DNA of 64,000 nucleotides. Source: Thunnus maccoyii. Its lineage: Eukaryota > Chordata > Actinopteri > Scombriformes > Scombridae. Both the position numbers and the translations under genes were made by a program. The stretch lies in assembly GCF_910596095.1 (NCBI RefSeq), contig NC_056540.1:17820501-17884500 (forward strand), given 5' to 3'. Below the pieces are notes generated by a model that saw only the letters and a program-made list of their open reading frames with translations, was not told the origin of the DNA and did no database searches. Positions 18,101 through 53,747 of the stretch are shown piece by piece (position 1 is the first letter of the stretch; the number at the start of each line of letters is the position of its first letter).

Positions 18101-20312
18101 TCCATACTCTGGGTTCGCCTCCAACATCTCCTCCGCCTCCCTCCGAGTCACATTGAAGAAACACCTACAGGAATCAGATAAAATGTGAAGACTTCCTTAT
18201 TGGCAGTGGCGCCAATAAAAGGACAGGTATGTTGTTTTAGAGGGCAAAGGGCAAAACACACACACAAAGCCTGTCTTATTTGTGTTTGTCATGTTTTGTT
18301 TTGCTGTTTTTACCGTATTTGTTGTCAGAAAGATAGAAATTGCAGGAAGAGGAAGAATGACTTGTAGTCTGTGAGAAAGAGCATTAATGAAGAGGACGGA
18401 TCTGAAAAGAAACATTTCTGTAAACTGACTTACGGAGGCATCTCAGAGCCGCTGTGGTCAGGATTGTCTTTGGGCGGAGGAGGGGGGGCGCGGGAGGAGG
18501 GGGAGGAGGGGGAGGAGGCTGGGCGAAGGAAAGATGGACGGGGTGGGAGGGCTGGACGTGTTGGGGGATTTCTCCTCTTCTCCTCGGCCAGGACATCCTC
18601 AAGCAGCAACATCTGGCCAGGCAGCAGCTGCAGCTTACTGGGAATCTCTTTCTACAGGGAAACGGAGCTCGTCAACACCGGTTTACTCATTATTATTACC
18701 AATAACATTTTACACAGATTATAACAAGACACATCGTGGTATAGTCTTGTAAAATTTATAATAATCCCTGAAATGATAATATAAGAAATTAAACACACAA
18801 ACACTGAAAATAAACACGAAATAATCTGATACATACTGTAATTAAATTATTTATAGTCTTATTTTCAGTTAGTCTCAATGAGAGTTTGTTCCTAGAAGAA
18901 TCATGAGAATAATTACCGGCTTATTGTTAACCAGGAAGTACTTGTTTCCTGTTGTTAGTTATGCTTGACTGTGTGAGTCAAGTAGGTGAAGTATTGCATA
19001 CAGAAAATGATTATTTTCAAAAGAATTTTGAAACTACAAGGTGTGTCACAACACAACACCAGTGAGTTGAACATCTGTCCTTGGAGCAGGTTTGAGAGGT
19101 CTCAGACATTAAAAGCGTTTGTTGTTGTTGTTCATGGGAATTCTGTAATATTCTCAACTATTAGCACCAGCAACTGTACTGTAGGTCTGTTAGTATCACT
19201 GTGTCTGTAAGTGTGTGTTTGCTTACTTTGGCAACGGTCAGGATGTAACCCCTCCACACCTCTCCTGTGTCAGGGTTGTCCATCTGCACAGTAACACAAA
19301 CAACAGACATTTTGGTTACGTGCTGCAAAGAATGACAATGAAATGTGCAAAAGAAAGGCAGAAAAATGATATTCTCTATATACACCATGTATAGCGCTCT
19401 CCTCTTAATCAAATCCTTGAAACTGGAGCTCAGGTAACACTGATAATTCCTTTGGATATGCATCTTTTTATGTTTGTTTCAATGAGCAAAGAAGTGTCAG
19501 ATTTCACTACTACACACCTTCAGCTGCACCTTCTCTGTGTGCAGCTTGAGGGTGAAGATGGTCGCCGTCTTTTTCCGATACGGAGAATCTAACGTCATGG
19601 ACTTCAGCTGCTCCAGGTCCAGTTTCTCTGTGTACTGACAAAGTAAAACAGACAGATATGCAAATTAACACTTGGTACATGCTTGATTGCTATAATACGC
19701 ATTGATTCATCTGAAGTAAGGTTAATGGTTAATTGTAATTTCATTATATGTAAAAATGATGTATGTTTTTGGTCTTCACTGCACCCTCTGCATCTTTTAT
19801 ACCTACTTCCTTATACTCCTATTTCCCCAGGTTCATTAGACTGTCAGCATTGTATGTTGATTTATCGAGAAACACATGCTGCCTTCACTGTTTAATTAAT
19901 CATACTTACATTTTAATATTTCTAATGTTTGTAATTACTTGTAAAGTTAAGAGTGTTTGCTTACTGTATCTTGTGTGTCATCTTTGTACAGAAACAGTGT
20001 GGATCCGCGGAGCTCTCCATAGTAGTTCTTGAAATCCTGAAAATCATAAATGTCATTTTGAATTTCTGCTTTTAACACAAAATTCACATCAATTAATTAA
20101 AAAGAATTTACATAAACATTTTTATTTTATTTTATTCTTCACATATTTAGAGATGTTACTTTTTCTTTTCTAGCTTTTACAGTCTGGAACTTTTCCATCC
20201 TTGTTCTCACCTTCTCTTTGTTATTTTTCTTCAACAGGGGTCCAGAGAAGTAGAGAGGCAGAGCCGTGATGGTGGCTCTCCTCCTGTGGACAACTCTGGG
20301 GTGCACAGACAT
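15197..20312 (-). CDS. stap2: Signal-transducing adaptor (STAP1/2-type PH-SH2 adaptor) with amplified tyrosine-motif exons
   Basis: Twelve minus-strand exons join to 470 aa: 20312-20211, 20036-19965, 19634-19518, 19283-19227, 18651-18434, 18164-18033, 17244-17175, 16568-16466, 16380-16192, 15987-15880, 15678-15571, 15333-15197. A PH domain spans about residues 17-120 (ITALPLYFSGPLLK, YYGELRGSTLFLYKDD, EVWRGYILTV). LLPGQMLLLEDVLAEEKRR and a proline-rich linker (about 135-180) follow. The SH2 domain lies at about 189-285 (CFFNVTRREAEEML, GSIILRPS with the phosphotyrosine-binding Arg). The tail holds three EGEYxVP / SPxYxNL modules, then a helical end (LESELREVLQIRRESLYAM) like the human STAP2 tail. 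STAP proteins act downstream of cytokine-receptor and Src/Tec kinases. The N-terminus resembles STAP1 and the tail STAP2; length (STAP2 about 400 aa) and tail favour STAP2. Confidence 0.88.
15334..16191 (-). repeat. Tandem exon-plus-intron duplication in the stap2-like gene (about 309-bp unit)
   Basis: The block 'ctggtttagacaaaaacac' through 'ctcattcatac' plus the following exon recurs at about 309-312-bp spacing. Intron copies lie at 15334-15570, 15679-15879 and 15988-16191; exons at 15571-15678 and 15880-15987 (108 bp each); the parental exon is 16192-16380 (189 bp). The duplicated exons are phase 1-1 and stay in frame. Each encodes 36 residues with one EGEYxVP and one SPNYNNL motif. Confidence 0.92.
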
Positions 20313-21440
20313 CCTCCAGAGCTCAGTCAGATCTGTGTACGTCTTCTGACTAGGTTTTGATATGCCTCAGTTCACGTCTGTTCAGTCCAGCAGTGTTGTC
20401 ATTAATAAACAGTTCAGTGCAGTTGGATCCTGAGAGTTTTGTTCCTTGTTGTTCTCTCGTGGGGCTCTCAAAGCAATGATGGATTAAAGCTGCGTCTTCA
20501 GTATACCTGAGATGATTATTGGTCTATAAACCTGCACTGATAAGCTTCTCTCCCCCTTTCCCTTCAGTCTCTGTGCTGTTACTGACAATGAGGAAATGCG
20601 GCAATGATTTACAAAAAAGGAAGTAGTTATTATAAATTAGTAGATCTCTTGTACTTTGAACCTGTGTATAACTCAAGGAGGACAGTTTTACAACATACAA
20701 GAAGAGGCAAGGAAGCATGCAGGCATGTGTCCACGTGCGCACACACACACACACAAGGGCACAATATCACCCACATGCACTAAAACAGCTCACGTTTTAA
20801 AGGCAACACTCACACAAGTGTTTTGTTGTTGTTGTTTTTTTATGTTTCATTTTACAGCCTTATACACACCCAGTTCATAGACTGGACACTCATTGGTGCA
20901 GCTGATGGCTGTGAGTTCAGTTGTCGGAGAAATGTATATTCAATTAGTTAAAATATCAAATAAATGTAGTAATTTGTTTTTAGTCAAACCAGTCAACCAG
21001 TCAAAAGTTTGGATACACTTTCTCATTGAAGTGAATGGGAAGGTCCAAACTTTTGACTGGTACTGTAGAGTAAGTTGCTGATTGCAGCCGTTTTGAAAAC
21101 TTTTCTAATAAACTCCTGCATGTATCATTTATTGATTTGATCATAAATTATACAATAAATCTATACATTACTCCATGCATACATTTCTGTAATACATCAG
21201 ATGTGATGTTATGCCATAAAAAAATCAATTTGCATGTGATTATGATTATTTTAACACTTTAAACATTTAGAGAAACAGTATGTATGTACAGAAAATGCTG
21301 TATTTTAAACACCTGATTAGTTCACTTGTTTTTATTTTTCCAGTTTCCATTTTAGAGCCCATTGATTGATGTGAAATGATCTATTTAATCTCTATATAAC
21401 ATGATTTGTCTCTATAAAATAAATATTTTATTTACAGCTT
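20313..21440. other. Intergenic region between the membrane-protein gene and the stap2-like gene
   Basis: It should contain the stap2-like promoter (20.31-20.6 kb). There is a (CA)n patch at about 20739-20756 and a Tc1-type hairpin at about 20998-21060. Otherwise it is AT-rich with no recognisable gene. Confidence 0.5.
20995..21067. mobile_element. Short Tc1-type inverted-repeat fragment (MITE-like)
   Basis: CCAGTCAAAAGTTTGGA (20998 on) is followed by GTGAATGGGAAGG and the reverse complement TCCAAACTTTTGACTGG, ending GTACTGTA. This is the well-known fish Tc1 terminal sequence collapsed to a hairpin. Confidence 0.75.
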
Positions 21441-21737
21441 TCACCTGGTGAAAATGAGCAGTGAAAAGCCAACACTGAGAAGCATGCCATATATGTACAC
21501 GGGGCTGGTGGTTGCAAAATACACAGCATCACACGTGTAATGTAGAAGCAGCAGCACACAGGACAGAATGAACGACAAACAGTGACACAGCGGGGAAGCA
21601 AAGATGATGATGAACCACAGCAGAACTTTGATCAACCGGAGAAACATCTGGAGGAGGTGCAGGAGCAACCAAATGGTCCAGAACAGCAGAGAGCCCAACA
21701 ACCACAAGGCTTTGGATGGAAGAACAACATCTGCATC

Positions 21738-21827
<90 letters not shown>

Positions 21828-23173
21828 TACTCTGTTTTTGTTTATTAGGAAGCTGTGAATGTGTTGACAGAGTGTTTGGGTTTTTGTGTGCTTACATAGT
21901 CTTGAGCATCATGTTCTTCCCTGCTAACAGCTGCCACTTTAGCAAGAAAAAGACAAAAACAATCATAAATCATATACATTTGTGCATATTAAGGAAATTC
22001 AGCTGTGAACATATTTTTTTTTATCAACACGCCAACTCTGTCACTTACTGAGGAAAGTGAAGAGCAGGAGGAAGAGTAGTCCACAGATCATCAGCAGCCA
22101 TTTTTGTCTTGGTGGTTGAACCTGAAATGTTTTTATACCAGAACAAATCTGAATGATATGTATTTTTTTTTTTATTGTACAGACATTTTGTAAACATAAT
22201 TCCTACTAATCTATAATGAGTTTATCAATACATATATCCATCACCATTTATTGATTTGTGGTTGGGAAGCCAACATTGATATGAAAAGTCTGGGTTCATT
22301 AAAATTATTCAACTTCATCAAAACCATTTAGAGATCACTTTTAAAAAAAACTGTCCACTTGTTCTGATGTGTTATTTTTAAAAGTTTGTTAGTTTCTAGA
22401 GCAGACTTAAGTCAAAAAACTTAAGTCTAAAACTAAAAACCTAAGTTTTTTCATTAAAATGAATCAAAACCATTCTGTTTCTTTAAAAAAACAAACAAAC
22501 AAACAAACAAAAAAAAAAACTAAAATAGCCTACTGTTCAACTGCTTTGAAGTGTTTTTTGACTTAAGTCTGGTCTTGAAAAAGGAAAGTAGGCTACAATT
22601 GAAATTTAAATCAAACTAAATCAAAACATGGACAAAATCTGATTTTATGATGCATTGAAACTTTTAAAAAGTCACTTAAAAACTTGAAATGAGCTTTCCA
22701 TGGATTTATTTATAGCCTAATTTTAAGTAAGTTTAAATAACTTAAGTTTCAGAAGCTGGAGTAGTTTACATTTAACTGATATTGGTAGTAGATACTGGTG
22801 GTGTTATTAGTATCAATAGAAACAACCTACCTGTTGTACGTACATGTACATGTTTCAACTCCACTCCTATAAAACTATATTTGGTCTATAAAGAGTTGCA
22901 TAAGTCACTGCTGGCAGTAATAACAACAGAAGCAGCATAAAGCTTTTTACTTCCTCTTACCTGTGAAACACCTGGACAGAAAACGCCCTCTGCTGTGTGC
23001 TCATACTTCCTGCAGATGCTAATGATGTGAAACAGACAGCGGTGGTGTTTAAAGTCATCACAGCTGCTGGGTGATTGACACAGTGGGCAAAGATCATCAT
23101 CATCCTCATCATCATCACCACCACCAGTGTCCCTCAGGTTGTTAAGACAGCAGTCTGGGCAGCGGCTGCACAT
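21441..23173 (-). CDS. Unrecognised 207-aa multi-pass membrane protein with cysteine-rich N-terminus
   Basis: Four minus-strand exons join in phase: 23173-22961, 22121-22049, 21936-21896, 21737-21441. Residues 1-71 are cysteine-rich (MCSRCPDCC, a Gly/Asp/Glu acidic run, LCPLCQSPSSC, HHRCLFHIISICRKYEH). CXXC-type pairs suggest a metal-binding or disulfide head. TM1 is at about 79-95 (WLLMICGLLFLLLFTFL), then a short charged loop (SREEHDAQDYDAD). Hydrophobic segments follow at about 118-140, 142-176 and 189-206, so three or four further spans. The protein ends SLLIFTR. There is no clear signal peptide. I do not recognise the family. The ATG is chosen because it directly opens the Cys-rich exon; the frame stays open a little further upstream. 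A candidate AATAAA lies at 21432-21427, just past the stop. Confidence 0.7.
21740..21823. repeat. (AG)n / (CT)n dinucleotide microsatellite
   Basis: About 84 bases of uninterrupted AG on the plus strand. On the minus strand it is a (CT)n tract ending in the CAG acceptor of the membrane-protein gene's last exon (exon starts at 21737). Confidence 0.95.
22122..22960. other. Intron 1 of the membrane-protein gene
   Basis: AT-rich intron with short repeated phrases around 22340-22620 (ACTTAAGTC, AAATCAAAAC, AACAAACAAACAAAC). I see no coding sequence or named element. Confidence 0.5.
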
Positions 23174-25129
23174 TGTTACTACTGTGACGGTCGAGAGGTG
23201 ACAGAGCAGGTTTATCCTCTCTGGGCCAAAAGGAACGGGAAAATGAAACTAACAGGAGGCTAGAAGAGCGGATCAGTGCCTCTGATGTGGTGCTTTTATG
23301 TAAAATACTTAACAGTGTTGCATTCACTATGTCACTGTTAAAACTTTTTTTTTTTTCTTTTGAAGCCACGTTATATTTTCAACTTCAGACAGGAATGAAA
23401 CACAGAACAAGTATTAAACATTATCATGTGCAATAAAGTAAACATTGTACTTATGTCTTCTTTCTTTTGTAATGTTTCTCATAATGTATTTTAAAAATAT
23501 CCAGTAAATTATATCTTTATGCAGGTAAAACAATGAGTAGGCATGTTACAACATATCAACCTGCCAATTCCCAATGAAAACAGTTTTAGGATGTATTTTT
23601 TTCAATGTTGTGAGCAAAAAACAAACTTCTATGTGTCCTATTTCTGTTTCAGTGTTCTGCAAAAGGCACCTGTTTGGAGGAATGACTCAGTGGGTGGAAC
23701 TGGTCTGTCTGCATATCACACTGGGTGCATTGCTGCCTTTCACATTATCATCCTCTAGGACACCCTTAAACAAACATCTCACTAACAACACATTTAAAAA
23801 AGAAATGCACAGGCTTATTTTAAAAAAAATGCATAGACACATACACACACACACGAGTAATATAAGTAATTTCAGTACGGGAGGCTCTGCTGAGGGAGCA
23901 GGTGAGAATGAATGATAATTAAAGATTGACTAACACATCTCAGTGATTTGTTTCATGTTTACATTTTAGTTTCAGAGTTGGTTTAATCAGTTTTTACACA
24001 CTGAAAGGCCTGGCTCCCGTCCCGGCTCACAGAACACAGCCTGAGGTTTATGGTCAGGTCCTGGCAGGTTTTGTTGTCTAGACCTAAAATAAGAGCTCCC
24101 CTCTGATTGTCTGGCTGTGCACTTGCGTGTCACTATTCTCCAAGCAACCGCAGCTTGTCTCACAATGTAAGTGCACTGAAGAATTGGCTGTACGAAATGA
24201 ACACCTAAAAACAAAGGTTTGCCTGTAGGCAGAGCACACCCCTGTTGTTTGTACAAGTGTATCTGGCTTGTTTTAACGAGATGTCTTAACGAGTTGCAGC
24301 TTGAAAGTGACAGTTCTGAACAAACTTTATGGCTACCGAACAAGTTTACAAAGCAAAGAACTTTCTTTGTATTACTGATGCAAATTTCTACTAGATATGG
24401 TGGTGTTCACATAGTACAATCCTCAATTTATAGTAAAAGAACCCTGCAACCATGTTACAACTGGGAATTTAAAGACCTTAATCACAGGAGACATTTTGAC
24501 TTCTCACAGTATGAAAAGCACAGGTGCAGCTAATTATATGAATGATGACTCCTTCCAATTAGGTGTCAATGAGAACCATTTTCTGAAGAAACTTGAAACA
24601 GATGCTTAATATCATCTTTGTACTTTATTTAATCAATAATTCACCAATAATGATAATTTATTTTTTTTATTCCATTTAATAGAGATTCTTTTTCACCATG
24701 CTGTAATTCTACTCCTGCCTCTTCTATCTACTCTGTATGTAAAACACCGTTTATCCGTCCTGGAAAAAGGATCTATTCTCTGTTGCTCTTCCTCAGAATG
24801 TTTTTAAAGTACGGAAGGTGTTTTATAATATACAGATTGTAAAGAAAGAGATGTATTTGTGAAGAAAATTTGTGATTTAGGACTTTATAAGTAAAACTGA
24901 TCTGACTTTTGTGAGATGTCAAAATAGTTGGATCCAGCGTGAAGGCTCATTATGCAAAAAGTTGTTTGAAGCACGTTTTACTTGTAACTTTTGAATTTGA
25001 AGTAAATGTCCCAACCTGGTCTGCATGGCTTGTTTTCATTCATGATTCTATACTGAGTCAATATTGAATGTGTGTGTGTGTACAGATATGTACACATGTT
25101 AAATAAACACACACCTTCTTCCTGTCACA
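23174..25129. other. Intergenic sequence
   Basis: It begins with the putative promoter of the membrane-protein gene (about 23.2-23.4 kb). The rest is AT-rich, and the short open frames at 23.6-24.5 kb do not resemble known proteins. No RNA gene was recognised. Confidence 0.5.
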
Positions 25130-26212
25130 TCCTGTCTCAAAAAGATGCAGAAAAACTAGTCCATGCATTTGTTACCTCTAGGCTGGATTATTGCAGTTCA
25201 TTATTATCAAGCTGCCCTAACAAGTCTCTAAAGACTCTCCAGCTGGTCCAGAATGCAGCTGCACGTGTTCTGACAAAAACTAGAAAAAGACATCATATTT
25301 CTCCCATTTTAGCTTCTCCGCACTGCCTTCCTGTAAAATCCAGAATACAATTTAAAGTCCTTCTCCTCACCTACAAAGCTCTTAATGGTCAGACACCATC
25401 ATATCTTAAAGAGCTCATAATACCCTTTTACCCCACTAGAACACTGTACTCCCAGTATGCAGGTTTACTTGTGGTTCTTACAGTCTCCAAAAGTGAAATG
25501 GGAGACAGAGCCTTCAGTTATCAGGCTCCTCTCCTGTGGAACCATCTTCCAGTTTAGGTCTGGGGGGCAGACACCCTCTATATGTTTAAGAGTAGGCTTA
25601 AAACTTTCCTTTTTGATAAAGCTTATAGTTAGGGCCGGCCCAGGCTTGCTTTGGACCAGCCCCTAGTTAAGCTACGAAGGCCTTGACTGCCAGGGGGACT
25701 TCCCATGATGCACTGAGCTCCTCTCTCCTCCTCCCCCTTCACATCTGTACGCAAAAATCTGGCTGGTCTTTATGCTTTCTCATCTCACAGGTTCCTATGG
25801 ATCATGATCGTGGACCACCTAGTTATGGACTGAGAGCTTCCGTGGGTTGTGGCCGCGGGGACACTGTGCTGCCGTGGTCGTAGTCATATTTCTATTATTA
25901 TTATAGTTGTTATTGTTATTATTGTTGTTGTTGTGCTTCTCTATCTCTGTCCCCTCTCCCCCTCCCTCCCTCTTTCTCTTTCAACCCAACCGGTCAAAGC
26001 AGATGGCCGCCCACCTAGAGCCCGGTTCTGCTTGAGGTTTCTTCCTGCTTAAAGGGGAGTTTTTCCTTGCCACTGTCAACAACTGCTTGCTCATAGGGGA
26101 ATGTTGGGTCTCCGTAACATAAAGAGTACGGTCTAGACCTGCACTATGTGAAAAGTGCCCTGAGATAACTTCTGTTGTGATTTGGTGTTATATAAATAAA
26201 ATCGACTTGACC
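25130..26212 (+). mobile_element. Truncated LINE-2-type retrotransposon (reverse transcriptase C-terminus and 3' tail)
   Basis: The forward frame reads DAEKLVHAFVTSRLDYCSSL, then LVQNAAARVLT, LLTYKALNG, PSYLKELI and AFSYQAPLLWNHLPV: the end of a fish L2/Maui-type ORF2. A long 3' part follows (GTTTCTTCCTGCTTAAAGG, GTTATATAAATAAAATCG), typical of the family terminus. Everything 5' of the RT C-terminus is missing, the usual 5' truncation. No functional ORF remains. Confidence 0.88.
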
Positions 26213-26747
26213 TTCTTCTATAGTTTGCACTCGGATGTCAGCTTTTGGCAAAGTGTCCAATTTCTATGACACAACGTTCCCAACCCGTTTTAGAAATACA
26301 ACATGTGTGCTTATACATGTTGGCGTGTGCATATGCCTGTAGGTAAACTTTAAAAACATTTGCCACCATGTGTCTGTTCTCTACATGCAAACTGTAGACT
26401 GATGCCCACTGCTGGCCACAGATTTTCCTTCTCAGCGGTGTTCTTTGACCCTGCTGGTCCCTCTGGCAGCTCCCATCCTCTCCTTTAATCCCTCATCCTG
26501 GAGGGGAGGCCAGGGAGATGCACACTAAGGAGAGAAAAACAGTCACTGTTCTCCATCACAGGGCCCCTAATGATGCTTCTCTTCAACCACTGACTGAGGA
26601 GAAAATGGCCACAGGGGTGACAGGGACAGAGGATAATATGGCGGACTGATGAAGCTCTATTAAGCCTCTGAGACAACAGCATGTGTATATTCTTTGACAT
26701 CAATTTATGTAAATAAAACATGAAAAACAAGTGACATGTAATTTCCA

Positions 26748-26753
26748 TTTTAT
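26748..26753 (-). terminator. Candidate polyadenylation signal of the Pax gene
   Basis: TTTATT on the plus strand (AATAAA on the minus strand), about 140 bases after the Pax stop codon. Use is inferred from position. Confidence 0.45.
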
Positions 26754-26894
26754 TTGAACATACTTGTAATTGTGATATATTGTAGGTTTCTATCTTGATG
26801 TCAGTTGTGTTGTAATAAATGTAATTTCAGTCAATCCATTTTTTGGCACCAAGAAGATGATATTTTTTCCAGCTGAGGTCTTTTGCAGCCTCGT

Positions 26895-29800
26895 TCAGCT
26901 GTAATGACATGAAGACCCTAAACAAGAGCACAGATGAGAGAAAACCCTTTGAGAAACACATCAAAGCTGAACTCTTATTAGAGATAAGTGATCATATTTT
27001 GATGCAGACTGACCTAACAGGTCTGGATTTTGATTAGCTGGCAGGCCGGGGTAAAAGGTCAGGCTGGAGATAGAAGTCAGACAGGGGTCAGACCGCCCCC
27101 AGGCGTCATTACAGGAACATGGCTGCTGGTGGTAGACGTTGCAGGAGACGTCCCCGTCTGGAAAACAAAACATCTTCTGTACAAGTTTGCTTTTATTTCA
27201 GATATAAAGTGCCCCTTTTTACCTCTATCCTCCCACTGCTATATTCACTTGTTCTAATTAGTAGAATGACAAAATACATACATGTGCACACACGTGTCCC
27301 AGGTGTAACTGTGTGTATTTATCTCTGTGATCTCCTATTCTAATGGTTTCAGTGATTGAGGATTGGAGGTGAAAGCAGGCCTGTAATGAGAGGCCGAGGT
27401 GAAGGGGAGGAAAGGAGGAGGAGACAACCTGCTGACTGAGAGGACAGAAGCCTGGGGCTGTGAGGTGGATTTCCTGCTGTGGAGGCTGTTTCGGTCAGAC
27501 TAATACTAACACAGAGCCAGCAGCTCTACACATCAGTCTGCTGTACCACAGAGGATCCAGTGTAATCTTTGTGTCTGCTCTGCAAAACATCCATCTTCAA
27601 AACAATGTTTTACCTGTGGAGTCTTACATTTTGTTTTTGAAACACAGGAATAGAAGGTGTCAATTTCTCTTGTTGCAATGAAAAACAACTTTTTTTAAAT
27701 ATGAATATCATTTTCTTGATATAAGTGGGGCGATTTGTCTTCTGCTTTACTTTCGGATATTAATTCCGAGAAAACTGCAAAAAGCAAGGACACAGAAAAA
27801 CATGAGGATCAGTGACATCACCCTTAGATTGTCTGAAGTAAAGAAAACAAGAAATTGGAAGATTTTATAACCGAGTGTGAAACTGAATTACTTTTTGAAA
27901 TCAAGGAACAAACAGCACAACTAATCTGTGAAGTGTCTTTAAGTACATTTCCATTAGTCATTAGATGCTTGTTCCAAGAACCTTGTGTCCCAGTTTGATA
28001 CGACATTACAAATTCAATTCACTGATTTGATGCACCCACACAGAACAAGTGAATACTCAAAGTGGTCAGTATGCAGACCAAATGTGTTTTTTGATTGGGA
28101 TATTGAAAGACATAATTGTTTCATTATACAGGAAACAATTAAACCAAATTGTGGATGATGTAGAGACAGCTTGAAAAATAAATAAATGAATAAATAAAAA
28201 ACATTCTGATTTTTCTTGGTTAAGTTTCCACATTTAATACTGGCTATAGCAGTGTGAGGAACATCTGCCAGTATTTGTCTGCATCTTTTTTATATTACTA
28301 CAACAATTTCTTGATTCCTGTATAACAGTATACTGTTGTTGGGACTGTTATTTAAACTACAACTACTACTGCCACTACTACTACTAATAATAATATATTT
28401 TATTTAGGTTCTAGAGCGCTTTTGAAGGTACTGAAAGACACTTTATACAGAAGAAGAGACAAGAAATCTATATATAAAACCCACTAAACGCAAGATAACA
28501 CACTAAATTGATGGAAACATCATTCAGCTTCATCCAAACCTCAAAATCCACAAAAGGTTGAGGTCAGATTATTAATTTTACATCTGTACTGTATCTTGCA
28601 CTGTAAGAAGATATAGATGATTTTGGATGTCAGTGTGAATGTCAGGTGTCACAGTCAACCGTGGTGGATGTTGCTTGCTCAGACTCCACACCTCTGTGCC
28701 AAAATGTCTTCTCACTACTTACTTTGGGCTTCAGAAACCTATGGCTGATATTACTGATCCTACATTCATGTATTTTCTACAGTCTGTCATTGAGATGGAA
28801 AGCTGTATGTAGTGATTCTTTCATATGCTCACACACACTCACACACATGCACGCTTTGAAACTATTTTACCTTCCTTATGTTTGCAGCATTTTCTGATTC
28901 CCAGGATTCCACTGATGGAATAGGTGGACTCAGAAGAACAGGCTGTTCCCATGGCAACAGATGATGCCGATGACACTGCAAAGATCAGAAGGCGGTGTCA
29001 TGAAACACTGGAGAGTGAGACACTGAGAGATCAACAGAGAGAAAGTCTTACCAATTTCACAAGACTCTGACCGGACGTTGCTTCTAATGATCCTGCAAAA
29101 ACAGACAAGTCACTAAACTTTCTTTTTAAGTTAAAACACACTCACACAACATAATGACACATGTTACCTGTTGATAGAGCTGATGCTGGGCACGCTGTTG
29201 TCGCCACACACTCGCTCCAGCAGGAGTCTGTCCCGGATCTCCCAGGCGAACATGGTGGGGTTTGTGTGCTTCAGGTGCAGTATCATTTGCACCACCCTGG
29301 GTGTAGCCACTTTAGGCTTAGAGCCTCCAATTGCCCCAGGTGTGATGCTCCCCGTCTCATTGTACCTGAATAAACAATGTCGATATCTATCAGGAGATGT
29401 TGATGTTTTACCTGTGAGAAGGGGGTTTGATGAATATGGATGCTGATGTTCATGATAAAAAAAAACAAAACAAAGAGCAACACATCATATTTCCTGTGAT
29501 CAGATAAATCTAAATATTCTCAACCGAAAAGACTTTCTGTCCATATTTGACATGAAAGTGGATATTTTTTTATATTCATATACTCTACATTTCCACAGTA
29601 TATAGGTCTATGTGTGAGTCTGGTTTTCTTTTGTGTACATATGCAGGCTACAACAGGCTTTTGTTGTTTGAATGTGTAGTAACATCAAACCTATACATTA
29701 TCTTCTTAATTACAAATAGGCTAATTCCATCACTTTCAATATGAATTAAAGTATTTAAATGACTGAAGTCTCTTTACCTGGCCAGTATTTTGCTGACACA

Positions 29801-30105
29801 GCCGTGACTGACGCGCAGGCGGCGGGAGATCTCACAGGGACGCACGCCCCGTTGCGCGAGCTCCACAATGCGCTGTCTCACCGCGTGCGGTAACGGGCGC
29901 CCGTTAATGAAGACTCCGCCGAGCTGGTTCACCCCGCCGTGCCCTGAGCACCGGAGCGGATCAAAGAAACATCACTACACACAAACTTTCAAGCCAATTA
30001 ACAGTTAATAAGCGCCACTACGCGTACAGGGGTGACACCTGAGATACATCACTGTTACTTACTGTGCGTAACGGTGAGCGGCACCTGTCCAAAGTGTATT
30101 TCCAT
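26895..30105 (-). CDS. Divergent Pax2/5/8-family paired-box transcription factor (pax5-like locus)
   Basis: Seven minus-strand exons join in phase to 239 aa: 30105-30063, 29943-29778, 29365-29168, 29092-29052, 28975-28871, 27157-27014, 26917-26895. The paired domain (about residues 15-141) includes [61 protein letters not shown] and SISSINRIIRSN. An octapeptide YSISGILG is at 168-175. The 166-bp and 198-bp paired exons, with a short separate ATG exon, are the exon layout I know for Pax2/5/8; Pax1/9 encode the domain in one large exon. No homeodomain remnant and no family-type transactivation tail are present, and the C-terminus ([14 protein letters not shown]) is unfamiliar. Head-to-head placement with zcchc7 matches human PAX5-ZCCHC7. 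It is presumably a nuclear DNA-binding protein. It could be a diverged pax5 duplicate; a pseudogene is unlikely because every exon is intact. Confidence 0.82.
27158..28870. other. Pax gene intron 5
   Basis: The largest Pax intron (1.7 kb). It contains (ACT)n/(AAT)n triplets and a SINE/LINE-tail-like repeat at about 28370-28500. I looked for a missing homeodomain exon on the minus strand here and saw none. Confidence 0.55.
28370..28500. repeat. Fish LINE/SINE tail-like repeat
   Basis: Reads AATAATAATATATTTTATTT, then TAGAGCGCTTTTGAAGGTACT and CTGAAAGACACTTTATACAG: a very common teleost 3'-tail sequence of LINE/SINE families preceded by triplet microsatellite. Confidence 0.5.
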
Positions 30106-30667
30106 GTTCAAAAAAAGTCTTTCAGGCTACTTACAGTCTAGTTTGGTACGAGGACGCAACATTTCTTACGCATTCAAACAGAAAAGTAAAACAAAAAGTT
30201 TTATGAGAGCACCGTGAAGAGCCTCTGCTGTTGTTTTGGTGAGGAGTGTCAGGACGCGCTGTCTCTCTGCTGCTTTCAGCACCTGAGCGCCGGACAGCGA
30301 CAGGAGCCTTTGATTGGACGCACGCGCACTGTGCACACACGCGCTGAGTTACCTTCTTGCTTTTAGTGGTAAAGAAGCCAGTATTTTAGAAATACAGAAG
30401 TCATGAGTCAAAGTCCCCCTGACCACCCACAAGTCTCTAAAATGATACATTATTTGGATTCATAATTAATTTTTTAATTAGGTTATAGTTTTCCCAACAT
30501 GAAGGTCTAAATATTGTTTCAATGTCTTCTCCCCACTATCAGGAATAACATTCTGGTGGAGAAATAAGCTACTGAATCGTTTAATTTTGTGTTTGCCAAA
30601 AAAGTCTGTTGAGTCGAAATAAAAATGCTGGAATAGCAACTCATATAATTTACCCACCATGTACACG
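30106..30667. promoter_or_regulatory. Pax gene upstream region (candidate promoter)
   Basis: Sequence immediately 5' of the Pax ATG. It is GC-richer around 30220-30350 (gcgccggacagcgacagg, cacgcgcactgtgcacacacgcgc), consistent with a promoter. Pax and zcchc7 are divergently arranged with 3.6 kb between their start codons. Precise sites cannot be called. Confidence 0.35.
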
Positions 30668-31575
30668 CAGTGGTGGAAGAAGTTTTCAGATCCTTTACTT
30701 AACTAAAAGTACCAATACAGCAATGTGAAAATACTCTATTACAAGTAAAAGTCCTGCATGAAAAATACTTCCTAAGTTAAAGTACAAAAGTATTAGCAGC
30801 AAAAAAGAAAGTAAGTGAAAGTATTGCAGTAAAAGTAGTGGTTTGGTCCCGCTGAGTGATATATTATTACATATGACATCATTAGATTATTAATACTGAA
30901 GCATCAGTGTGTAAGCAGCATGTTATTGTTGTAGCTGCTGGAAGTGGAGCTAGTTTGAACTATTTTATATACAGTTAGCTAGTTCAGTCCAGTGGTTCCC
31001 AACCTAGAGGTCAGGCTCCTCCAAAGGGTCACCAGATAAATCTGAGGGGTCATGAGATGATTAATGGGAGATGAAAGAAGAAAGAACAAAGTTCTGATAC
31101 ACAAATCTGTTTTCAGTTTTTGGACTTTTTCTATAATCTTTGATTTTTCATGAAATATTGGATCATTTGAACATTTACTGAAATGAAACCATGTGAGAAG
31201 TTTAGAGTGAAAAATCACTATTTGGTGGAGCTGTTAACAACTCATAGACATCTGAAATGTGACCCCGACGACACACTGCTTTTTGTAAGACGCCACAAGC
31301 CAAAAAGGTTGGAAACCACTGGTTTCATTTTTAACAATGTGTTGTATTTTAAAAGCTTGTTATATTATCCATTGTGTCAAATCTTCATCTGAAAAGTAAC
31401 TAAAGCTGTTAAATCAATGTAGTGGAGTAGTAAGTACAATATTTACCTCTGAAATGTAGTGGAGTGAAAATATGAAGTAGCATTGAATGGAAATACTCAA
31501 GTAAAGTACAAGTACCTCAAAACTGTACTTAAGAACAGTACTTGAATAAATGTGCTTAGTTACTTTCCACCACTG
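30668..31575. mobile_element. hAT-like non-autonomous element (CAGTGGTGGAAGAAGT type) with a second element inside
   Basis: It begins CAGTGGTGGAAGAAGT and ends ACTTTCCACCACTG, the terminal inverted repeat of an abundant fish element with AAAGTA/AAGTAC-rich arms (AAGTAAAAGTCCTGCAT; AGTAAAGTACAAGTACCTC). The interior is non-coding and interrupted by the element at 30990-31321. No intact flanking duplication was recognised. Confidence 0.75.
30990..31321. mobile_element. Nested hAT-like element (CAGTGGTTCCCAACCT type)
   Basis: It starts CAGTGGTTCCCAACCTAGAGG and ends AGGTTGGAAACCACTG, an imperfect terminal inverted repeat. Its interior (AGGGTCACCAGATAAATCTGA) is typical of the vertebrate family with this terminus. 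It lies inside the element at 30668-31575, so it inserted later. Confidence 0.7.
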
Positions 31576-32200
31576 TATCTACATATTTAATTGTAGAAAG
31601 TAAGCTCCTCTAATGTTGCTTAACCCACAATTCCCAGAACAAATACGGAGGACATGACTTGATCCAGTGATTTTTTAAACTTAAAAAAACACTTCATGAA
31701 TCTTCATATTGTCAGATTCAAAATTCAAGACTTTCTAAAACAAGGAGTGTGAGATATAATTCCAGTTGTTCCCACAAAGTGCAGTTTCAGATTTTATAGA
31801 TAGTGATGTCAGTATTTTGAAATAAGTAGACAAGCATTTTTAAAATGACCACTGATTAAAACAAACTGGTTTGTATGAGTGGAAGCCCTGAAATGGCCAA
31901 AGAAATCCTTTTAATTATGACATTTAGAGCTGCAATGCTTAGTCGATTAATTGATTAATCTTCTACCAATTGACTAATGATCAGGAAATGAATCTGCAAC
32001 TATTTTGATAATTGACCAAATGACCGGGCCACTTTCAATTTCAGGGCTTTTGGGGATGGAACTAGCAGGCAAACTCTGTTTAAGGGAAAAGTTAAGATAA
32101 ACATAAATACTGATATTCAGCGTCTGATTCTCTGTTTTTTCCACCACTTACACTTATGAAAAAGTGTTTGACATCATAGCAAGAGCCTTAATGCTGTTTA
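31576..32200. other. Intergenic sequence between Pax and zcchc7
   Basis: AT-rich non-coding DNA. 31926-32040 carries the 'GAGCTGCAATGCTTAGTCGATTAATTGATTAATC' type repeat shared with 1843-2110. No gene seen. Confidence 0.5.
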
Positions 32201-32204
32201 AACC

Positions 32205-33025
32205 CCCTTTCAGATTTGTGAAACCTTTATTGTCCTTATGAAAACAGAAAAAAGGGTGATTTCACTGCTTTCCATCCAGACCACATCAGACTAGGGCTGA
32301 ACAGTTTTGAAAAAACAATGTTGAAAACAAAATTGAAAAAATATCTAATTGTGATTATTTTGACTGATATTGCAATTGCAATATGATTTGCGATATTAGA
32401 GTGAATGATATTTTTTACATTTTCATCATTGTCATTTTCATTGAAAAACATATAAAAATGATGTGATTTTTGTGGTGATCTGTACCAAACAAAGTCTGTA
32501 TAATATCATGTGTAGACCAGGATGTCTCTGCAGCACCACAGTATTTAATTTGAAATAGTATTTTGACACACATTTCTCCTTTAACAAACCTCCTGCGATT
32601 TGAAAATTGCAGTAGGACATATTGCGATTTTGATAAAATTTCGATTAATTGTTCAGTCCTACATCAGACCAGGTCCAGATAGAACACAAATCTGGAATAG
32701 ATCAACAAGGAGACTCCAGAGACTCATTATTACATAGTTTCAGATTTGTGAAACCTTTGTTCTGTTTGTGAAAACTGAAAAAAGGGCGATTTCACTGCTT
32801 TCCCCTCCATCCAGACCTCATCAGACCATGTCCAGATCAAAAACCACAGTACTTAGACTTGTCAAATCTGGACTAGATTAACAAGGAGACTCCAAAGACT
32901 CATTAAAAACAGAGTTTCAGATTTGTGAAACTTTTATTCTATTCGTGAAAACTGAAAAAGGGGCGATTTCAATGATATTTCTCCATCCAGATCCAGATCA
33001 AAAACCACTATACTAGACTTTTAAA
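32205..33025. repeat. Tandem repeat, about 0.15-0.19-kb unit, at least three copies
   Basis: The phrase TTTCAGATTTGTGAAACCTTT, then GTGAAAACTGAAAAA, GGGCGATTTCACTGCTTT, CATCCAGACC and GTCCAGATCAAAAACCAC, recurs from about 32208, 32738 and 32923. The first copy is split by the insertion at 32292-32661. No coding potential. Confidence 0.75.
32292..32661. mobile_element. hAT-like non-autonomous element (TAGGGCTGAACAG type) with 8-bp target duplication
   Basis: It starts TAGGGCTGAACAG and ends TTGTTCAGTCCTA (inverted repeat). It is flanked by an exact CATCAGAC duplication at 32284-32291 and 32662-32669. The interior (GCAATTGCAATATGATTTGCG; AATTTCGATTAATTG) is shared with the copy at 51318-51690. 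It splits a unit of the surrounding tandem repeat. Confidence 0.85.
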
Positions 33026-33703
33026 CATTTTCTTTCTCCTTGTTAATTCACTTAAGATTTAAGTAAGTATAATATAGGATTTAAACAGCGTTAAGGCTTT
33101 TGTTACGATGTCTAACACTCTTTCATTAGTGTAAGTGGTGCAAAAACAAAGAAACAGCCGCTAAATATCATTATTTATGTTTTCCTGTAACTTTCTCTTT
33201 AACCCGAATCGGAAGTTGACTTGAGCGTCGTGGTTCAGTTTTGGTTGTCCAACATTTTATTCAAACATGTAAACACGCGTGGAAGTAAATAACAGCCCTG
33301 GAGGGAATATTTTATATGGTGTGTGAAATTGTGTGAAATTACAGCCGAGATATACTGGGCTAAAACGGTAAGCAACAGAAAATGTCCGTAGACTTTATCT
33401 TGGTTGTGTTTGCTAATTTGACAAGGCTACTACGGAGCTAGTTAGCGTTAGCATAGCACCGGTTAGCCTAATGTTAACCCACGTGTCGAGATATGAAGAC
33501 GTTTCCCACCCACTTCATGCATTATATGTACGAAAGAAATCCTGCATCCAGCCAGACACTTTTATATCGGCCACAATGCTAATTATTAAGATAAAAGTTG
33601 TGATAAATGAGCAACATTAGCCGCCGCTGTTTGCTAGCAGTGCCGTGAGTGCTCGTTGGGTGGCGCTGTTCAGCTGCAGTTTTTGCCAGGTAAAGGTTGT
33701 ATT
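33026..33703 (+). promoter_or_regulatory. Probable zcchc7 promoter and 5'UTR
   Basis: The region carries GTTAGCGTTAGC-type sequence at about 33442. A potential donor CCAG|GTAAAG at 33690 could end an untranslated first exon just before the ATG at 33704. If that site is used, the coding start would change, so the 5' end of zcchc7 is the least certain part of its model. Confidence 0.35.
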
Positions 33704-36700
33704 ATGGACTTCATGAAAGAAAACGAAGATGATGATGGTGAAGAAGCCGGTGGCGAGGATGAGCGCTTCTTTATTGAGGGCTCCAGCTGTTCAGAAAGTG
33801 AAGAAAAGATCAAGTTTAGTCACCAGAAGCAGCACAGCAGCTGCAAACAAGCCACTGAGCGGAGCAGGGGAAGCTCTCCTCCGCTCCTCCTGGCCTTCTC
33901 CGTCACAACTGGACGGCTGCTGCAGGACAGCAGCCCCAGCTCCGACTTACAGGAAGAGGAGGACAGTGACCAGCACATCGAGGACTGGATGATCCTGGGA
34001 GGAGGAGAGCAGGAGGGAGACTCAAGCATCCAGCTCAATCTGAGCTACTGGAGCAGCATCTCTGGCGATGACTCTGGAGATGAAGGTGAGAGCTTTTGGG
34101 TGCCTCAATCTGTCCTACTAACTCAAAAGTCTCTCTGCTAGTGCAAGAAAATAGTATTGATAGGGGTCTATGTTGTGGGATCCAAAAGTATCTCACTGAA
34201 GTACAAGCAGCATCTCAATTTGCCACGTAAGGTAGTAAGAAAAATAACAAAACAAGAATCAAATAGGAAACCATTTAGTCCCAAAGTAACGTGTTTGGGC
34301 TCAGCCACTGTATACTAGTGTTACAGTATACAGGCTACAGCATCTACCAGCCACTTGCATATTTTACCAGCACTTGACTGGTGGCTGGTGCTAATTTTGA
34401 GCCCTGTGAACATAACACGTCTGGAGGGGGTCTTAAATAGAAATGTGATCAAACAAGGTGCTCTTCTCTCAAACACACATTTGGTCAATCATCGATTGTT
34501 CACATAACGTCCATGAGAAAGTGAATGGCTACAGTTTACAGCTGATAGCCAGTGGCACGAAGCAATATAAAGGGTAAAACTAGTAAGAAAAAAATATTTG
34601 TTAAATGAAAAGGCCTCAGAAATGCCTGCACTTTTATTTACAACAGTTTTGTTCAAATCTCGTGCAATATATTGTGATTTTAGCTGAAATTGTGTGAAAA
34701 CACTTCTCAGTTGTCCCTTAGTTTTCTGTCCCATTATCATCAGTGTCTACATGTATATTTTCACTTAAAGATTCAAGGTGATACGAGACAAAACTGTTGC
34801 TATTAAGGGACTCTGAGCTGGAAAAAAGATTTTATTAAAAACTCTGTACAACTATTTTTTGTTCTCTCCTGAAAAATAGATCCTATACGACATAAATAAC
34901 TCCATGAATAGTGATACTTTATAGACTGTGGAGTTTTCAGCTCAGAGTTACTCTAGTCAGGAGATATAGAAAAAAAAAAGATAGATCCTGATAGAAGATA
35001 ATTTCTGTGGATACATTCATGCAAAAACAGTACAGAGAGATTTCTGTAAATCTGTGGAGTTGCAGTTTATTTTTAAACATATAGGGAAGGTTTGCTGAGC
35101 ATGTACTCTGGGTTTCACCTTCACATTAATGAAGATACTCGCATTCACACCGAGAAGCTGCCCTACACAACCACTTCATCTTGTCTTGCCAGCCAACAAC
35201 TCCACTGGAGCGGAGGGAGTTGAAGTATTTCCTTACATCTCAGTGATAGTTTTTATAGGAAGGTCAAGTGTGTTTCATCAATTTTTAAAGCCCCGAGAGC
35301 TACAGCTTTTTACAAGACAGAATACCTGAGAAAGACTTCGTTTATTAGGCTTGTGAAAACTCCTGTTTTTGTAAGGGTTCAAGAAATATCTCTGCCTGAG
35401 AGCCATACAGTTAGATTTGTCATGGTGGAACAAATTTATGACTTCATAACTTTTTTTTGGTCATTCTCTCCATCATAGATCAGAATATAAAATCAGTTGA
35501 AGATACCTGGGCTGTATCGGAGAAAGACAAGGTAACTTTTAATATCAACCAATGTTCAGGAATACAAAAGGGAAGGAAATTTATTATAAAATATGTGTGT
35601 TCTTTGTCTTTTTTTCATCCCGTAATTTCATTTTCCTGCAGTCTAATATTGCAGTGTGGAATTTCAAATATTGCCTTTCATGTCTTTATCCACTTATATT
35701 ATCTAGTGTTTTGCTGATCAGTCTCTGCTCAGCCGCTACTTCGTGCGCGGCCGTTCTCTGATGTGTCACATCTGCAACAGGACGGGACACCAGGCCAAAA
35801 GCTGCTACATCCACAAGGTAAAGTAACACACACACATACATAAACTTGACATACTTACAGATCCAGATTTCATGGTCTTGTAGGAAAAACTAATTCCACT
35901 TCCTGGTGTCCCAATGGTCTAAAATGCTCACCGTGTAAATGTGACAACCCTGGTGTGAGTTCAACTGACATCACCTTCTCCCCCCCCCAGTGTTTCAAGC
36001 TGCTCTAAACTTTAAACTATCCAGTTATGGCAAAATGTTAAAACTATCTTTTATGTTGATTGAAATATTGAGGATATTGCTGTGAAATACATGTCACTAC
36101 ATGTTTCTGTTTGATTGATCGCTACTCTAATTTACTAGCTTATTCAGTCTTTAAAAGTCCCTCTCCACTGTTTTGATTCTTGTTCCTTTAGTTGGATGTT
36201 TGAGCTTCACTGTGCAGAATGATGTATGTGCAGAGTTTGGCACTAGAAGGCTGTTTTCACAATTATCTGCTGAAGGGGGAAAGTTTCTCTGTACTCATGT
36301 TAAATCTGAGTTTAAGATGTGTCCCTATGAGCATGGTTTGTGACATCACAACTTGTTGGGATTCAGTTGTTTGATGTGGAAACTTGAAACCTACAGTGTA
36401 CAAACACTGAGAGTGGACGTTTTCAGACAATTAAGAGACATCTTGTGTCCAATAGTTAAACCTTCAAAAAGAAAAATATTTGCATGTTCATAAATTCTGG
36501 AATTTTTAATGAGGGAGAAAGAGAAGATGTAATTTTAAGAATTTTAACAAGATAATTGAACCTTATTTTGTGGAAAAAACATAATTAGACACAATGTTTC
36601 TGTCTTTTACAGGCTGCCATAAGCTGCACTAGAGATATCAGTGTTGTTGCAATCTTAAGGCCACCTGTAGATTTTTTTTTGTTAATGAAAACATCCATCT

Positions 36701-39700
36701 TAACACCCTTGTAAGAAAATCAATTTTTCGTCTCTGTGTCTGCAGAAATGTCCCACCTGTATCCTTTGTGGGATCCAGGGCCACATCCAGAGGGACTGTC
36801 CGTGCCGCCCCTGCCCCAGCTGTGGACTGCCCTCACATGGCCTCAGGCCCTGTGAAAATCCCCCAACATGGAACCAACACTGCCAGCGCTGTGGGGTGAC
36901 AGGACACCTCTCTGATGTGAGTTTGTCCGTTAGCCCCCTAGGCCTGGCCCCTGTGAGTGTTTGTGTTGGAGTGTGTGTTGTCACGTTGAAGCAGTTGTCA
37001 GTTGTGTGTTGACAGATTCTTTAGCCTCAGGCGTGTGTGGGCCGCATTTATGAAGTGTTGTTTGAACTTGGCAAACAGTTCCTCATCTTCAGTGCAGTTA
37101 CACAATGCTTTTTTTCCCCGTATTCTTGCTCAGAAGACTAATTTTCTCCTCTGTTTTCCGCAGGCCTGCCCTGATATATGGAGACAGTATCACATGACAG
37201 TGAGTTGAAGCTTTTAGTTTAGTACACTTTCTCATCTCGCTGTCTTTAATAAGCAAAATGTCACTGATTTTGTTTTTTAATGATTTTGCTTTGGATCAAG
37301 GAATTAAAATCATCCAAACAGGTGTTAATCAGGTGTTTTTTATTAACTTGGTGAAACTGTGATCCTGAAAACATGGGTGTGTATTGATAAAACCTCCAAG
37401 AAATCAACTTTTTCCACATTTAAAAATGTTCCCTTGTTTGACTTTGTTTCCAGATCCGGTTAGAGATTCCCCCCGGGCCATGGAAAGTCCACTCCCTCAA
37501 ACATAAGAAACGCCCTGTTCATTGTTACAACTGCTCTAGGAGGGGACATTATGGCTATGTAAGTGGCCAATGAAAGGAATCCTTTACTGTCAGTCTTACT
37601 TTTACCATCTCTCTTTTTCCACTTGACTGATCTTCATCTGCCTACACTCACTTTCTAAGACTTAATAGTTCTTCTGTGTCTCTTTCTTTTTTCTGTAACA
37701 CTGTCTTACTCCTCTATATACCTCTGTCCAACATGCTCTCCCCCTCTCTCTCTCTGCATCTCCTTTTGGGTCAGACTTCTCTGTACCTGCCCCGCTTTGA
37801 TAATCTTGCTCCCTCACTTTTTCAATACATCTACAGTATTCTCTCTTCTCTCCCCCATCACTTTATCTCTGATTATTTCTCTGAAACAGCACCGTTCTCT
37901 AATATCGTGCATCCATCCCTCACTTACCTCTCTTTGTTTGGTCGTCTCCGTTCTTCTGTGCCTGTGTCGGTATCAGGAGTGCACTAAAAGGAGGATGGTC
38001 AGTGGTTCGTCTCCCTCCCTGCCTTATGTTTGCCACTACGACACCATGGAAGACATCCTCCAACGTCGCACCAGGATGCTGAGGAGAGCTAAAGGTAATA
38101 CTGCACAAACACGTGCACACACACACACACACACACACAAATAGCAAATTAAGTTGTCAGCACTTGCAAATAAGTATGTAACACTTTTAATAATGCACAG
38201 CAGCAGAAGGAAACGGACGTGTTCCAGCCCTAGGCTTTCCTCAGCGTTTCGGAGACATATGTGGGTGTGACCCCTATTAAACAGCAGCCGGGGACCTGCT
38301 GGTCATTAACAACCAGCTGATACGAATCATCAAAAAACATCTTCAAAAGGCAAATACTAGTAAGAAAAATAGTAGTAAAGAAAATTAAGTCATAAGAAGA
38401 AATATATCTCATTCTGTTATTGCAACAACCAGATAAGTGACCAATTAATTTACACACTAAGAATAAGAAAGTGCATGTATATACATATGTAAACTCATCA
38501 TGTCTAGAACCTCCATAGAAAATACAAATGCATATATAATACCCATCTGTATTCATAAAAAAACAAGACAAAAACAATTAATCATTTAAGCTGCCAGGAT
38601 ACCTAGTCTGTAAGTAGTGGATCCATTAGGCCTCTCTTTGGAGAAGTTTCCTCTCTTCATCTTCTCCCCTCATCAGTCGCCTAACAGCCTTAATACCCGT
38701 GAACAGTAGCCTACAAACTCCATAGCCAGCAGAATTAAAGTGTCTGGCTACAGGAGACCTCTCATCCATATTTTTGATGCTACTCTTATGCTCAGAGATC
38801 CTAATTCTCAATTCCCCTTTCTGTCTTGCCCACATAACAAAACTCACAAAGACATTTCAATAGGTAGACTACATGTGACTTTCATTTTTCTGCCTGTGTG
38901 AGGATGTAAAAAATTCAATGCAATTCAACCACCAACAGTTTGGTCAGAGATTCTGGTGTGTTATGCTAGTAGAAGCTAATGTAGCTCTGAGCCGTTAGCT
39001 TTTAAGCAGAGATTAGGAGCGGGCTACCGAGGTCTGGTAACCTCACTTGATCTTTCTAACTCCACAGCCCAGATCGTTTTCATTTGCAGACTTGTAGTCT
39101 TTAGCTGCAACTCATGCTGACTCAAGTGAGATCAAGAGATATCCCTTGAGACAATTTATCAGACTTTGCGCAGCTCCCTCTAGAACCACATTCAGGCTTT
39201 ATACATCTTTTTTCACATGCAGTACTATTCTCCAGCACCCATCATTTTAAAGAGTTTCCCTTTTAATATAACAACAAATCCTGTTGTCAATGTTATTTTC
39301 AGAGCTTGTGAGTGCTGGATCCCTGTTGCTCTTAGAGCAGCAGCATTTGTCCGAACCAACAGGGGAGAGCGGCGAGGAGAATCAGCCGGTACAGGGGAGG
39401 AGCAAGAGGAACCAGGAGGCACGGAGCCATGGCGGCAGGAGGAAGACTTGGCCTGAAAGGCGCAGAGAGAGACAGGAGGTGAAGAGGCTGAGGAGGGAGG
39501 CTCAGGCCAGACGTGAAGGAGGACTACTGGTGAGGTCCCGGGGTCACTCTGATGATGAAGCCTGCACTGCAGATCCCCTAAGGTCCCCCCTCCACGGTCA
39601 TGGACAGTCCACACCCCCTCCACAGAAGAAGAAGAGGAAGGATGAGGCAGGTGGCAGAAGGAGCAGGAAGAGCAGAGAGGCAGAGAGGTGGAAGAAGAGA

Positions 39701-39802: not shown

Positions 39803-40255
39803 AGTAATTTTTTTTCTTTTGTTGTAACTAATAACAACAAAAAAGATTTTGTGTTTTGTTTTCTTTTGAGTAATTCATTTATTTAATGTCAATACAAAGA
39901 CCTGTAGAATAGGAGGATATACAGTTGAAGGATGCTAATTTTTAGTGTAACTGTATGAATGTATTTTAGTACTTTAACCTTGGTTTGTGTGTGCATCTAC
40001 TACTATGAAACTGGCGGGGCCAAATTTTAAGCATGTACAGTTTTCAGCATATTTTGGAATATGTTTTTACACACTGTGCCTGTTTTATTTGACCCATATG
40101 TATCGTGTGTTTTGGGGCTGATTTGTTATCTTCTTAAATATAAAGATATTTTTACGGTGCTGTAGCCTTTTCTGTCATTAAAATACTTGAAACCAGGTCA
40201 CACACCTTTAATTGGCAAGTGTAAAGGTTAATATTTATATTGTAAAGACAACGAC

Positions 40256-41812: not shown

Positions 41813-53747
<11,935 letters not shown>

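Follow-up and report, generated by a model that had tools for sequence, protein, structure and literature searches.

The human PAX5 gene gives rise to a delta6/7/8 splice form in which exons 1-5 are joined to exons 9-10 (extract of PMC9456430), and the role of each PAX5 isoform is called undefined in the excerpted part of a review. For mouse Pax5, extracts of PMC10509461 report that most target genes went up once the octapeptide was deleted (83% of 35) and down once the homeodomain remnant was (78% of 41), and that CRD1, encoded by exons 8-9, was needed for much activation and repression. Across eight ray-finned genomes, extra copies were reported in seven of nine Pax genes, PAX5 and PAX8 being the exceptions (extract of PMC3759438); pax2 is the only one named as duplicated in the extract of PMC2532684, and an eel gene is named 'paired box protein Pax-5-like' in that of PMC9780358. 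Here we describe a shortened Pax gene of Thunnus maccoyii, lying in a 64,000-nucleotide stretch of DNA (the window; positions 17820501-17884500 of contig C8, NC_056540.1) within a searched genome of 782 Mb and 54 contigs. With a probability of about 0.68, we read it as the second pax5 copy from the teleost whole-genome duplication (3R), shortened and likely a repressor or competitor at Pax2/5/8 sites, and we give it the working name pax5b, which is distinct from the mammalian isoform of the same name.

Structure of the gene and its counterparts in the genome

The window gene (30105-26895, minus strand) is real, with an intact frame and intact splice sites: seven in-phase coding exons with GT donors and AG acceptors join into 720 nt with a single terminal stop and encode 239 amino acids (aa) within 3.2 kb. 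An earlier note on this DNA had described these seven exons and both sizes, together with a full paired domain on exons of 166 and 198 bp and the octapeptide YSISGILG in exon 5, and each of these was borne out, both paired exons matching Pfam PF00292 (Table 1). The paired domain spans 128 aa with the conserved intron of the Pax2/5/8 architecture, and its 166/198 split is that of Pax2/5/8 rather than the single exon of Pax1/9, the paired box being unsplit at the genome's own pax9-type locus (L002). CpG observed/expected ratios, taken in 300-base steps, reach 1.17 and 0.88 over exons 1-2 versus 0.07-0.45 across the remaining gene.

A six-frame search with PF00292 returned 58 matches, many of them weak, from 150 scored candidates of 192, and located Pax2/5/8-type split paired exons at a minimum of five loci, on contigs C20, C14, C2 and C19 and in the window. 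When searched by tblastn with human PAX2, PAX5 and PAX8, C20 and C14 best fitted PAX2, C2 PAX5 and C19 PAX8, and each of these four genes has exons reaching the C-terminus; beside these conventional pax2, pax2, pax5 and pax8 genes, the window gene is a further Pax2/5/8-type locus. The conventional pax5 that the earlier note had proposed seeking was found on C2 (19840607-19887611). Exactly 5000 N stand inside this gene between exons 4 and 6 (C2:19854490-19859489), and its exon 5, which is not visible, presumably lies within that run, hiding the octapeptide of own pax5. Among the human sequences used, those of PAX5 and PAX8 (paired domain) and GRHPR (full) agree with PDB alignments and PAX6 entered only as an aligned PDB chain, the others being PAX1, PAX2, PAX3, PAX4, PAX9, ZCCHC7, MELK, RNF38 and RNF44. 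Outside the genome, pattern searches gave 267 matches in bacterial and archaeal contigs and 35 in viral contigs, with 0 confirmed in either, these collections being uninformative on other fish.

The window exons correspond to pax5 exons 1-5, 9 and, weakly, 10. Exon 27157-27014 shares with pax5 exon 9 its phase and an NPxLLG/GT end before a phase-1 donor, and part of it lines up with the pax5 exon 9 sequence GGDFSGSPYSHPQ. The score of this resemblance was reached by 8/2000 shuffles against own pax5 exons 9-10, by 6/2000 against human PAX5 and by 0/2000 against PAX2, as compared with 458/2000 against PAX8 and with 224/2000 and 1887/2000 for two other pax5 exons; the alignments differ in detail (the PAX2 match crosses the exon 9/10 border) and any registration after NDAW is tentative. 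The last exon, GSSCHYS before the stop against GSPYYYS of exon 10, is a stretch too short for statistics. Within the 1.7-kb intron, no remnant of pax5 exons 6, 7 or 8 scored beyond the range of 100 shuffles, and tblastn gave no match above 24 bits to the partial homeodomain (exon 6) within the window gene. Of the C-terminal activating/inhibitory region encoded by exons 8-10, exon 8 was not found, leaving the exon 9 relic and seven exon-10-like residues.

Because exon 5 finishes in the phase in which exon 9 starts (phase 1), an exon 5-exon 9 junction keeps the frame. We propose that the 3.2 kb retain pax5 exons 1-5 together with a piece of the C-terminus, namely exon 9 and perhaps the beginning of exon 10, and that with exons 6-8 lost, exon 5 would be spliced to exon 9 at a phase-1 border. 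Where the earlier note had both the homeodomain remnant and the known C-terminal region gone, the former accords with the intron and shuffle results, whereas the latter went too far, given the exon 9 relic and perhaps an exon 10 start. By architecture, lacking the partial homeodomain, the product is not a standard Pax2/5/8 protein.

Probable descent from pax5 and the age of the duplication

Support for the inferred descent comes from synteny and not from the tree: the head-to-head pair of zcchc7 and pax5 is duplicated, and both chromosomes concerned also carry a copy of grhpr and of rnf38. The human order is taken to be RNF38, MELK, PAX5, ZCCHC7 (head-to-head with PAX5) and GRHPR. On contig C2, zcchc7 (minus strand) lies at 19.790 Mb, pax5 (plus strand) at 19.841-19.888 Mb, melk at 19.911 Mb (about 24 kb from pax5), grhpr at 19.991 Mb and rnf38 at 28.62 Mb. 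On C8, the window holds the Pax gene (minus strand), zcchc7 (plus strand) and rnf38, and grhpr lies at 15.66 Mb; melk was found on C2 only. The window matches three frames of the C2 zcchc7 locus in order (3e-4, 8.9e-16 and 1.5e-7), the nearest tested exon lying 5.6 kb from the Pax ATG and the likely 5' exon, recognised by eye, 3.5 kb. The window zcchc7 is strongly diverged from the C2 copy (L031), at 38-43% in two exons and 13/15 residues in a third, and both partners of the head-to-head pair on C8 may have evolved fast. The human PAX5 neighbourhood is thus present around the window gene, with ZCCHC7 head-to-head and GRHPR and RNF38 linked, and C2 and C8 are read as two counterparts of one human block.

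In a tree of RNF38 and RNF44, both own rnf38 copies group with human RNF38 and a gene at C8:11.38 Mb with RNF44 (support 100/99), the branching order within RNF38 not being fixed. Both copies therefore arose after the RNF38/RNF44 split, which we take to be a split of the two earlier rounds of whole-genome duplication (2R). This disfavours the suggestion, also made in the earlier note, of an older and separate Pax lineage not usually annotated, although distances give no date. The note's other suggestion, a fast-evolving teleost pax5 duplicate, is supported by the shared neighbourhood.

Over 121 columns of the paired domain, the window gene shares 97 residues with own pax5, 96 with human PAX5, 95 and 94 with the two own pax2 genes, 94 with human PAX2, 92 with human PAX8, 90 with own pax8 and 88 each with human PAX1 and PAX9; codon counts, fourfold-degenerate sites, column tests and neutral runs rest on the same 121 columns, and the 15-row tree and the relative-rate tests on 122, the first being a splice-border placeholder that leaves the relative-rate tests unaffected. 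Among four PDB matches, Pax5 (1K78) was best at 222.5 bits, followed by Pax8 (213.1), Pax6 (184.3) and Drosophila Prd (174.2). Among seven other Pax2/5/8 sequences, R107 is common only to own and human PAX5 and S113 only to own pax5, residues that favour pax5 descent. The window octapeptide equals that of human PAX5, YSIS itself not being PAX5-specific (own pax8 has YSISGLLG). A paired-domain phylogeny, as called for in the earlier note, was built here on 15 rows, with one own Pax1/9-type (L002) and one Pax3/7-type locus (L004), and L001, L003, L005-L008 and other own Pax loci left out; it joined the window gene with all seven other Pax2/5/8 rows at 43/74.

A number of observations weigh against a teleost-age pax5 copy. 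The best 15-row tree places the window gene with PAX5 at a weak 35/74 and a longer alignment does so at 48/79; with the latter, constraining the gene to pax2 gave a likelihood 1.2 log units better than the tree found (approximately unbiased test, p-AU 0.62) and placement with pax8 was not rejected (p-AU 0.29). The genome search with human ZCCHC7 returned the C2 gene only (2 matches), the window copy becoming visible in direct comparison; grhpr of C8 lies 2.2 Mb away and rnf38 of C2 8.7 Mb away. The grhpr copies (L032, L033) match each other at 181/298 versus 221/323 and 195/299 to human, and the rnf38 copies (L036 and the one in the window) at 157/208 versus 196/259 and 209/269. Fourfold divergence between the window gene and pax5 (28/51) exceeds that of the pax2 pair (22/59) and equals the lowest of the 2R-age pairs (29/54 to 37/55), the grhpr copies standing at 52/93, and the synonymous distance (dS) of the window gene to C20 pax2 (1.12) is below that to pax5 (1.53). 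The grhpr and rnf38 copies on C2 and C8 would either have evolved very fast or be older than the teleost duplication.

These distances bear on an alternative in which the window gene goes back to 2R as the 'missing fourth' Pax2/5/8 member, retained by this fish lineage but not by tetrapods, which have three of four expected paralogs (extract of PMC2532684). The trees allow such an origin, the silent divergence between the window gene and pax5 matches that seen among 2R paralogs (60/121 third-position differences versus 56-69), and each grhpr or rnf38 copy is as distant from its partner as from the human sequence. We nevertheless consider it quite unlikely, given that the window rnf38 and its C2 copy both fall on the RNF38 side of the RNF38/RNF44 split, that C2 and C8 share the zcchc7, grhpr and rnf38 of a single human PAX5 block and that the window gene has the PAX5-type residues ERVC and YSISGILG. 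A GRHPR tree intended for dating yielded shared-residue counts of 4, 1 and 3 in 244 columns and no date, and silent change near saturation gave none for the window gene.

Table 1. Features of the window, in window coordinates.
Feature	Position	Strand	Remarks
Exon 1, coding part	30063..30105	-	43-bp coding length and phase same as own pax5 exon 1 (MEIHCKHDPFAAMH); 28/43 bases identical to C2 pax5 exon 1
Exon 2	29778..29943	-	166 bp, PAI half of paired domain; Pfam PF00292 1.3e-29
Exon 3	29168..29365	-	198 bp, linker and RED half of paired domain; ERVC as in pax5; Pfam PF00292 8.7e-29
Exon 4	29052..29092	-	41 bp, paired-domain end; start point same as C2 pax5 exon 4
Exon 5	28871..28975	-	105 bp, octapeptide YSISGILG; tblastn with human PAX5 exon 5, E 0.005
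Exon related to pax5 exon 9	27014..27157	-	about 20 extra residues; shuffle test 8/2000 vs own pax5 exons 9-10
Last exon	26895..26917	-	23 bp, GSSCHYS then TGA stop; resembles pax5 exon 10 start GSPYYYS, by eye, weak
Intron at place of pax5 exons 6-8	27158..28870	-	1.7 kb; no trace found of exon 6 (homeodomain remnant), exon 7 or exon 8 (first half of activation domain)
CpG-rich stretch, possible promoter	29800..30399		over exons 1-2; observed/expected 1.17 and 0.88
AATAAA polyadenylation signal	26749..26754	-	about 140 nt past stop
zcchc7 duplicate, tested exons	35710..37202	+	head-to-head with Pax gene; best exon 8.9e-16 vs C2 zcchc7 locus
zcchc7 parts by eye only	33638-34138; near 39800	+	likely 5' exon; 3' part; recognised by eye
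rnf38 (RING finger)	45825..53744	+	second rnf38 at C2:28.62 Mb

Elsewhere in the window, the rnf38 copy has a histidine-rich stretch of about 40 residues ahead of QDENY (46703-47200, plus strand), which human RNF38 presumably lacks. A repeat of about 440 bp between the zcchc7 exons (36151-36594), probably a dispersed element, recurs at 72-88% next to pax8 on C19 and, on C2, upstream of pax5. Comparison of window positions 20001-40000 with five stretches around the other four Pax2/5/8 genes gave, besides the paired exons, matches only outside the Pax gene, and these non-coding matches are taken as dispersed repeats or simple sequence. An open frame of 166 codons (25057-25557, plus strand) resembles the C-terminal part of a long interspersed nuclear element (LINE) reverse transcriptase, and an ankyrin-repeat exon (2914-3399, plus strand; Pfam PF00023, 1.1e-5) probably belongs to an ANKRD13-family gene.

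Constraint on the paired domain and its Pax1/9-like residues

Between the window gene and own pax5, the 121 paired-domain codons differ at 17 first, 14 second and 60 third positions, corresponding to a nonsynonymous distance (dN) of 0.131, a dS of 1.53 and a dN/dS of about 0.09 (Nei-Gojobori method, NG86). When own pax5 was evolved neutrally by 0.2 substitutions per site, none of 1000 runs reached 97 identities and 149 were without a stop. The gene has also moved quickly: 18 of the 107 columns invariant in the seven other Pax2/5/8 sequences are changed, and five overlapping relative-rate tests gave 20-23 unique changes in the window gene against 0 in pax5 (p 8e-6 or less). From these comparisons, the paired domain appears constrained but fast.

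An alternative is that the window gene is a decaying duplicate, long selected, its use recently lost and its paired domain not yet broken. The 18 changed columns, the loss of exons 6-8 and the ending of exon 10 after seven codons would fit such a history, and neutral runs leave room for recent decay in that 0.1 substitutions per site still preserved at least 97 identities in 663/1000; the degraded C-terminus, likewise, could be early decay, a point against a retained and functional copy. On the other side, the frame and all splice sites are intact, the CpG-rich start is kept, and silent change far exceeds replacement change, which indicates constraint for most of the gene's history. We regard decay as unlikely, and retention of a shortened pax5 copy as the better account.

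The earlier note had seen the paired domain as a mosaic of Pax1/9 and Pax2/5/8, as would result from exon shuffling or gene conversion, and several results do lean that way: five changes of the window gene equal Pax1/9 residues (V21A, H31Q, G55A, Y58N and V67A), Pax1/9 differ at 19 of the 107 columns and 9 of the 18 changed ones are among these (p 0.0005), and a constraint with Pax1/9 in the 15-row tree, costing 8.9 log units, was not rejected outright (p-AU 0.081). At the DNA level, however, the Pax1/9-like tract matches own pax5 at 84/111 and own pax9 at 76/111, which is also the score of pax5 against pax9, so that no pull toward pax9 is seen. The tract furthermore spans the Pax2/5/8 intron that own pax9 lacks, and the Pax2/5/8 residue is kept at 10 of the 19 distinguishing columns. 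A mosaic origin is therefore very improbable, and the mosaic described in the note is not seen in the DNA; we read the Pax1/9-like residues as convergence, in that columns tolerant of change would have changed on two occasions, which would explain the overlap.

Predicted function and comparison with known Pax5 systems

The paired-domain turn is kept with one change; the recognition helix is kept too, and so is SSINRIIR, with which the second half ends. The conservation of these elements suggests that the window protein would bind Pax2/5/8-type sites through its paired domain. The octapeptide would recruit Groucho/TLE, whilst the protein, being without the homeodomain remnant, would not contact TBP/Rb and would activate poorly or not at all. 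The outcome would be a repressor or competitor of Pax5, Pax2 and Pax8, a gene-encoded counterpart of PAX5 delta6/7/8. Considered against the mouse domain deletions, a protein with octapeptide kept, homeodomain and exon 8 absent and exon 9 damaged would most likely repress weakly while also competing for the sites of Pax5, Pax2 and Pax8; loss of half of CRD1 may weaken repression too, a further point against the proposed role. The paired-domain-only competitor of the earlier note was too strong a description, as the octapeptide and a C-terminal exon relic are kept, whilst its repressor or competitor role is plausible. The gene span of 3.2 kb against 47 kb for own pax5 suggests that intronic enhancers were probably lost. 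A more specific proposal, which we put forward tentatively and hold as somewhat doubtful, is that, following the teleost duplication, the short delta6/7/8 form was fixed in the gene structure of one pax5 copy, giving a repression-only Pax5 with its own compact promoter, selected as a dedicated antagonist of Pax2/5/8; a splice form would in this way have turned into a gene.

No description of such a shortened pax5 copy was found among the matches listed from open-access PMC literature. The eel Pax-5-like gene may be a related copy, in which case automatic annotation may hold relatives already. According to the surveys, pax5 did not remain as a pair following the teleost duplication. If the reading is correct, a retained, remodelled copy would be a new player wherever Pax2/5/8 act in fish, a natural version of the domain deletions made by hand in mouse Pax5 (extract of PMC10509461), and would allow a test of whether a splice form can pass to a separate gene.

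Overall, the window gene is closest to own pax5 and vertebrate PAX5, which it resembles in the layout and phases of exons 1-4, the exon 9 relation, the head-to-head zcchc7, ERVC and 97/121 paired-domain residues; own pax5, however, spans 47 kb with exons 6-8 and a full C-terminus, against 3.2 kb and 20-odd paired-domain changes in the window gene with 0 unique in pax5. The two pax2 genes on C20 and C14 are also a Pax2/5/8 pair, taken as kept after the teleost duplication, but, in contrast to the window gene, their exons extend all the way to the C-terminus and their paired domain is conserved (dN 0.011). The mouse Pax5 deltaHD and deltaCRD1 alleles are comparable in being without the partial homeodomain or exon 8 with the octapeptide kept (extract of PMC10509461), yet are engineered single losses that leave the paired domain unchanged. 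Human PAX5 delta6/7/8 has the same passage from exons 1-5 to 9-10 (extract of PMC9456430), but as a splice form of one gene, whereas the layout in the window is fixed in a separate gene whose exons 9-10 are degraded.

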